In this document: piece by piece, positions 18,798-51,939 of the stretch
How positions within the stretch are numbered: position 1 is the first letter of the stretch
How the letters are laid out: each line of letters opens with the position of its first letter
Source: Amphiura filiformis
Taxonomy: Eukaryota > Echinodermata > Ophiuroidea > Amphilepidida > Amphiuridae
Length of the DNA stretch: 64,000 bases
Assembly (NCBI RefSeq): GCF_039555335.1
Contig: NC_092631.1
Coordinates: 5,857,501-5,921,500, forward strand
Reading direction: 5' to 3'
Translations under genes and position numbers: made by a program
The notes under the pieces: generated by a model
Seen by the model: the letters and a program-made list of their open reading frames with translations, nothing else
Told to the model about the DNA's origin: nothing
Databases searched by the model: none

Positions 18798-18999
18798 GTG
18801 ATGGCCTCTAATTACATCTTTGAACAGCGGCCAGATGGAGACATGGCTGCTGCTGTGATGGCCACTGACCTGTTAGAACAGGGACCACATGGAGACATGG
18901 CTACTGCCGCTGTGATGGCCACTGACCTGTTAGATCAGGGACCATGTGGAGACATGGCTACTGCTGCTGTAAACAATGACTTACACAATGGTCAATCAG
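18798..18999 (+). CDS. large gene, exon 1 of the coding region: N-terminal 19-residue repeats
   Basis: The acceptor 'ataacag' precedes 18798 and the donor 'tcag|gtaagc' follows 18999. From MASNYIFEQRPDGD the exon encodes three copies of a 19-residue unit of the form GPHGDMATAAVMATDLLDQ (57 bp at DNA level), the third partial. The frame upstream of 18798 is closed by TAA at 18792, so the start is the ATG at 18801. It ends in phase 1. No known domain; the repeat looks low-complexity and young. Confidence 0.65.

Positions 19000-51939: not shown

Follow-up and report, generated by a model that had tools for sequence, protein, structure and literature searches.

The Helicase RBR subfamily of ubiquitin ligases is one of three RBR subfamilies found in both unikonts and bikonts, and several animal lineages have lost it (PMC2904391). 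Animal helicase-RBR proteins have been little studied; DEAH12 has been named in work on clams and a fungus, and in clams it has served as a single-copy nuclear marker (PMC8765752). Heads that combine a DED with a TRADD-N domain, which is ACT-related and has an RRM-like fold, are joined in other proteins to ankyrin repeats, to KH/RRM and PARP14-like parts, to DDX60, Mov10, and RLR-like receptors, and to TRIM ligases (PMC8195603). Several of these DED-TRADD-N associations involve retrotransposons, and reverse transcription has been proposed as the origin of other fusions (PMC8195603). In lophotrochozoans, DED and other domains have been grafted onto the N terminus of RIG-I-like receptors (RLRs) (PMC8998645), and DED-NACHT and similar hybrids of amphioxus have been recovered as transcripts (PMC2575513). 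About 12 RLR-like genes, some with a CARD, have been described in the sea urchin, and the word "death" is absent from that text (PMC2686710).

Here we describe a locus of Amphiura filiformis within a window of 64,000 nucleotides, the whole stretch of DNA that was analysed. In the reading that we set out, which we hold with about even confidence, the locus is one animal gene with a predicted product of about 3,340 residues that would work as an RNA-triggered, death-fold-coupled ubiquitin ligase. With the same reserve, the product would begin with a DED-like domain and an RRM/ACT-like domain, followed by ankyrin repeats and by several RRM or RRM-like stretches; then would come a DEAH/RHA helicase together with HA2 and OB, a DEAH11-type RRM and KH domain, and, at the C terminus, an RBR.

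RESULTS

Exon chain of the locus

An earlier note on this DNA had described 14 exons with GT...AG borders whose phases chain without conflict. A 14-exon chain that fits every border given there was recovered on the plus strand, on which all exons and domains described below lie, from an ATG at 18801 to a stop at 51939; the borders absent from the note were added in the present analysis. Introns are GT...AG with concordant phases from the ATG into the 7-kb exon 13. When the 12 small exons are joined, the phases agree, the borders are AG/GT, and one base is left over, which is what exon 13 requires; the junction of exon 13 to exon 14 (50052/50785) is phase 0. Exon 1 (18801–18999) carries the ATG and a short tandem repeat with a 57-bp unit and has no Pfam domain. 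Exon 2 (20629–20829), also without a Pfam domain, and exon 3 (22286–22330) encode linkers, as does exon 7 (30962–31056), ahead of the ankyrin repeats.

Exon scans were run with splice weights and with codon weights, the latter taken from exons 13 and 14, the helicase/RBR exons. Of the small internal exons, which number 11, the stricter scan recovered eight with exact borders; it also gave part of exon 6 and four segments outside the chain, and exons 10 (35419–35517) and 12 (40207–40357) were not among the segments listed. In the looser scan of 17.0–42.95 kb, 13, 17, and 25 plus-strand segments reached scores of at least 17, 13, and 10, respectively, against 4, 9, and 18 on the minus strand, which served as a control. 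A second control, 52.0–63.9 kb, gave 1, 2, and 4 segments on the plus strand and 1, 4, and 12 on the minus strand at the same thresholds. Because the top minus-strand segment (33.1) outscores every plus-strand one (30.5 at most), the exon scan is weak when taken alone and the protein matches weigh more. Acceptor scores were poor for exon 6 (−0.5) and exon 12 (1.7).

The window contains several further features. An open single-exon frame on the minus strand (5231–6259; 343 codons stop to stop) encodes a rhodopsin-type GPCR (7tm_1, 8.5e-49), for which somatostatin receptor 2 (4.6e-31) and then opioid receptors rank first among the best 60 of 791 solved matches. This nearby frame, the many introns of the gene, and its DED-like domain all suggest animal DNA. 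One 39-bp unit recurs in rotated form in four arrays (1177–2537, 3141–3757, 6917–7604, and 13412–14312), one minus-strand frame of which reads by eye as a Ser/Thr-rich 13-residue repeat. A weak minus-strand match to zf-RVT just under cut-off (9165–9638; 1.4e-5) is probably a retroelement remnant, and a long ATC trinucleotide run of 148 copies at 86% match occupies 10026–10471. At 34317–35219, within intron 9, diverged short tandem repeats are densely packed; their units measure 16, 26, and about 42 bp, and their orientation flips near 34.67 kb. Intron 11 holds an element of about 1.9 kb (37531–39442) with 333-nt inverted arms that are 98% complementary and an inner 140-nt inverted pair; its two minus-strand frames gave no Pfam match at E<=0.01. 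Rfam at gathering cut-offs gave zero matches over the whole window.

A DED-like domain, an RRM/ACT-like domain, and ankyrin repeats form the head

A death fold had been claimed for 25010–26851, and a Pfam DED match, below the family cut-off, is indeed present there; the complete lack of such a match, which the earlier note had named as its own refutation, was thus not the outcome. It starts at about 25087 in exon 4 (25010–25135), which encodes the first part of the domain, and ends at about 26790 in exon 5 (26618–26851), which encodes the remainder. Scanned by itself, the piece gave an E value of 4.7e-7 and 30.4 bits, and within the joined N-terminal part, of 575 residues, the E value was 9.9e-6; in both scans the match stays under the cut-off of 35.9 bits. 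The second family for the piece, PYRIN, followed far behind DED (E 0.027). When the DED piece was compared with PDB sequences, the outcome was uninformative (nine rows, best E 0.0035); eight of the nine rows fall on the same 20 residues (58–77), in chains mostly named as armadillo-type or YIII constructs.

Exon 6 (29980–30279), which has the weak acceptor, encodes a 99-residue RRM/ACT-like (ferredoxin-like) domain that the earlier note had missed, although the domains that it did list hold. Pfam assigns exon 6 to no family (best E 0.12) and lists no TRADD family for it, and a PDB sequence search was uninformative (best E 0.9). A low-confidence single-sequence model (mean pLDDT 56.2, pTM 0.47) has the order strand-helix-helix-strand-helix-strand. 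With this model, the best Foldseek match was a ferredoxin-like design (E 9.4e-3), and none was found at E<=0.001. Near the top were ferredoxin-like designs and regulatory domains of aspartokinases, which we take to be ACT domains; TRADD was absent among the best 50 of the 1001 rows. The domain stands where published DED-TRADD-N immune proteins have TRADD-N. The modelled fold agrees with exon 6 being a candidate TRADD-N, but it may instead be an ordinary RRM.

Four ankyrin exons had been proposed, and three of their repeats stand on their own, whereas the fourth is covered only in part. In the joined N-terminal part, Ank_2 was matched at E=3e-19, and three stretches passed singly with PF00023 (Ank). 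Exons 8 (32083–32181), 9 (33498–33602), and 10 each encode an ankyrin repeat; exon 11 (37130–37201) encodes a short ankyrin-like repeat that Ank_5, reaching residue 510, covers partially.

The helicase-RBR half has DEAH11-type domains

Exon 13 (42915–50052) encodes RRM and RRM-like stretches, the DEAH helicase, HA2, OB, and RRM_DEAH11, and exon 14 (50785–51939) encodes KH_DEAH11 and the RBR, with the stop at its end. Four stop-to-stop frames cover the two exons, of which the first three overlap (42881–45268, 45207–47699, and 47572–50103) and the fourth is 50707–51939. Pfam searches on the translated pieces confirmed the ankyrin, RRM, DEAH helicase, and RBR content claimed before, and added KH_DEAH11 and RRM_DEAH11, which had been overlooked.

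RRM_1 was matched at about 44525–44707 and at 46161–46370, with a fragment at 49195–49293. Its E value was 1.5e-9 in the second frame, 6.7e-8 in the third, where no single stretch passed, and 0.003, below cut-off, in the first. When three RRM-like pieces were scanned on their own, one gave RRM_1 at 0.037 and the other two gave no Pfam match, so that such pieces are called RRM-like on visual inspection or on faint similarity within the exon. Exon 13 also holds a pair of closely similar units, each about 100 residues long, which differ at 32 of 309 bases. Between the internal copies, dN is 0.068–0.071 and dS 0.25–0.30 (dN/dS about 0.23–0.29), and this low dN relative to dS indicates constraint, which is past constraint only.

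In the helicase (about 46824–47787), DEAD (3.7e-11) and, in its second half, Helicase_C (1.4e-6) were above the Pfam cut-offs, as was OB (48454–48696; 7.6e-14). Within HA2 (47971–48246), HA2_N was above cut-off (5.9e-6), and HA2_C (2.9e-4) was above it in one scan and just below it in another. Between OB and RBR, both RRM_DEAH11 (PF24637; 49399–49611; 3.5e-9) and KH_DEAH11 (PF24471; about 51082–51255; 1.6e-11) were above cut-off, while RBD_DEAH11 reached E=0.024 with 15.2 bits against a cut-off of 28.4. The RBR is an ARIH1-like stretch at about 51277–51885, in which IBR was above cut-off (4.3e-14) and the RING models were under theirs. The alignment of exon 14 with ARIH1 (E=1.4e-15) spans RING1 to RING2 and matches the GCn stretch of RING2, which presumably holds the active cysteine. 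The hallmarks RRM_DEAH11, KH_DEAH11, and RBR of the DEAH11/DEAH12 architecture, which had been described as one of plants, are thus present; helicase-RBR proteins are ancient and also known in animals. In pattern searches of viral contigs, 47602–50052 gave no match and exon 14 gave nine matches with no relative among them; exon 14 also gave 22 matches in prokaryote genome contigs, again with no relative.

Against solved chains, the best matches of the helicase halves were DHX8 (4.3e-63), a chain named RNA helicase (1.1e-61), and Prp43 (1.7e-61), and among the best 60 of the 64 rows for each half, most of these nearest solved relatives are DEAH proteins that act in splicing. Such relatives would suit an RNA quality-control ligase without an immune function, carrying a head that acts as a protein-binding adaptor with no role in death signalling, and the DED match below the Pfam cut-off points in the same direction. 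However, no other family comes near DED for its piece, PYRIN reaching only 0.027, and in surveyed invertebrates such heads mark proteins that are read as immune or cell-death proteins (PMC8195603). We therefore consider a quality-control ligase rather unlikely and prefer an immune role.

Two frame breaks interrupt exon 13

The earlier note had missed that the 7-kb exon consists of three overlapping frames with two changes between them. The best change point lies at 45205–45246 for the first and at 47594–47617, inside Helicase_C, for the second. Because of these two breaks, the DNA as given encodes no single full protein. Each zone has one run of four equal bases, although such runs are common anyway, and on both sides of the breaks the motifs of the helicase and the RBR look intact. 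Errors of assembly are our preferred account of the breaks, with a broken allele of a working gene as the alternative; a programmed frameshift at both is unlikely.

The same breaks, and the element of about 1.9 kb with its 333-nt inverted arms inside intron 11, would also fit a decaying gene, in which the fusion arose and the present copy is a pseudogene. Yet the coding sequence, about 10 kb long, has no more than two breaks, and the four-base runs in both zones, common as they are, are frequent sites of assembly error. The helicase and RBR motifs show no visible decay, and dN/dS between the internal copies speaks for constraint, if only in the past. Decay thus appears quite improbable to us, and a working gene with assembly errors remains the preferred reading.

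One gene or two

The earlier note had treated the head and the helicase-RBR half as a single gene, and we judge that they probably are one. The link is exon 12 (40207–40357), a charged linker between the ankyrin part and exon 13 with an in-frame ATG at 40339. Its 44 codons before that ATG score 11.7 bits in frame, against −5.3 and −15.0 in the other two frames, which contain stops. Outside the exons, 26 of 36,947 plus-strand placements reach this score with an open frame (2,844 are open), a count that is not a p-value because the placements overlap and the exon is Lys/Gln-rich. The first 85 codons of exon 13 contain no ATG and carry, by eye, an RRM-like stretch, so a coding exon should precede them, and exon 12 has the right phase. 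The site at the end of exon 11, in turn, resembles a donor (6.1), and its phase is the one that exon 12 requires.

Phase, the coding signal of exon 12, and the start of exon 13 without ATG thus support the single gene, but the ATG at 40339 offers a rival start. It is in frame with exon 13 and has an A at −3, AATAAA occurs seven times within 37202–42914, and the ankyrin frame read past 37201 stops, by eye, after 11 codons, where a head protein could end. These features would fit two adjacent genes, a DED/RRM-like/ankyrin adaptor from 18801 to about 37.2 kb and a DEAH12-type helicase-RBR gene starting from or near exon 12; moreover, clams have DEAH12 as an ordinary nuclear gene in single copy, with no statement on whether it has a head there (PMC8765752). 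The coding look of the 44 codons ahead of the ATG and the in-phase donor of the last ankyrin exon speak against two genes, which we regard as unlikely. The single gene is the reading followed below.

DISCUSSION

The domains, their order on one strand, the exon phases, and the intact-looking motifs are seen in the DNA. From the families to which the domains belong, the product would be predicted to bind RNA through its RRMs, helicase, and KH domain, to transfer ubiquitin through its RBR, and to assemble with partners through its DED; that these three activities are coupled in one protein is our inference. In the mechanism that we propose, the RRMs, helicase, and KH domain would bind unusual RNA, of viral or transposon origin, and an ATP-driven rearrangement would gather copies of the protein on it. 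The DED part could then assemble with DED partners of the FADD/caspase-8-like kind, and the RBR would take ubiquitin from an E2 onto its active cysteine and hand it to proteins bound to the ankyrin repeats or the death fold. We suggest, tentatively and with some doubt, that an ancient helicase-RBR protein was captured by an immune head of the DED-TRADD-N type to give a complete RNA-triggered death-fold ubiquitin ligase. If so, this animal sensor could dispense both with a MAVS-like adaptor and with any separate TRAF or TRIM ligase. If real, the natural fusion to a death-fold head would also suggest that the animal helicase-RBR proteins act in immunity or cell death, and it would open the connection of RNA binding with ubiquitin transfer to experiment.

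Four known systems resemble the locus in part. The DED-bearing RIG-I-like receptors of lophotrochozoans likewise have a death fold grafted before an RNA helicase (PMC8998645). They have the RIG-I regulatory domain, however, whereas in the present locus a DEAH helicase with HA2 and OB precedes an RBR; no match to an RLR-type regulatory domain was listed in the Pfam scans of the helicase half. ANKIB1, an Ariadne-type protein without a helicase, also has ankyrin repeats and an RBR in one protein. In ANKIB1 and other Ariadne proteins, an Ariadne domain follows the RBR; exon 14 gave no Pfam match to it, and the frame ends soon after RING2.

The C-terminal half most resembles DEAH11 and DEAH12 (the "Plant I/Helicase" RBR subfamily), which share the DEAH core, HA2, OB, RRM_DEAH11, KH_DEAH11, and C-terminal RBR in the same order. 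What sets the present gene apart is its front part, with the DED-like and RRM/ACT-like domains, the ankyrin repeats, and additional RRM-like stretches, and the part of PMC2904391 used here mentions no such head for the Helicase RBR subfamily. The N-terminal half most resembles the DED-TRADD-N proteins of marine invertebrates, which have a DED, a domain with an RRM-like fold, and an ankyrin or other variable module, and for which RNA-related partners are known (PMC8195603). They differ in their ligase: the E3 named in sections 10 and 11 of PMC8195603 is TRIM, and the terms "RBR" and "ubiquitin ligase" are absent from the main text.

The earlier note knew of no described protein with the full set of domains. 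In agreement with this, the literature searched yielded no publication that places a DED head on a helicase-RBR protein, although the tables behind PMC8195603 could list one and each half is of a known kind. What would be new, if the locus yields one transcript, is the pairing of a known type of head with a known type of helicase-RBR protein, and such a fusion, if real, would add the RBR ligases to the partners published for DED-TRADD-N heads.
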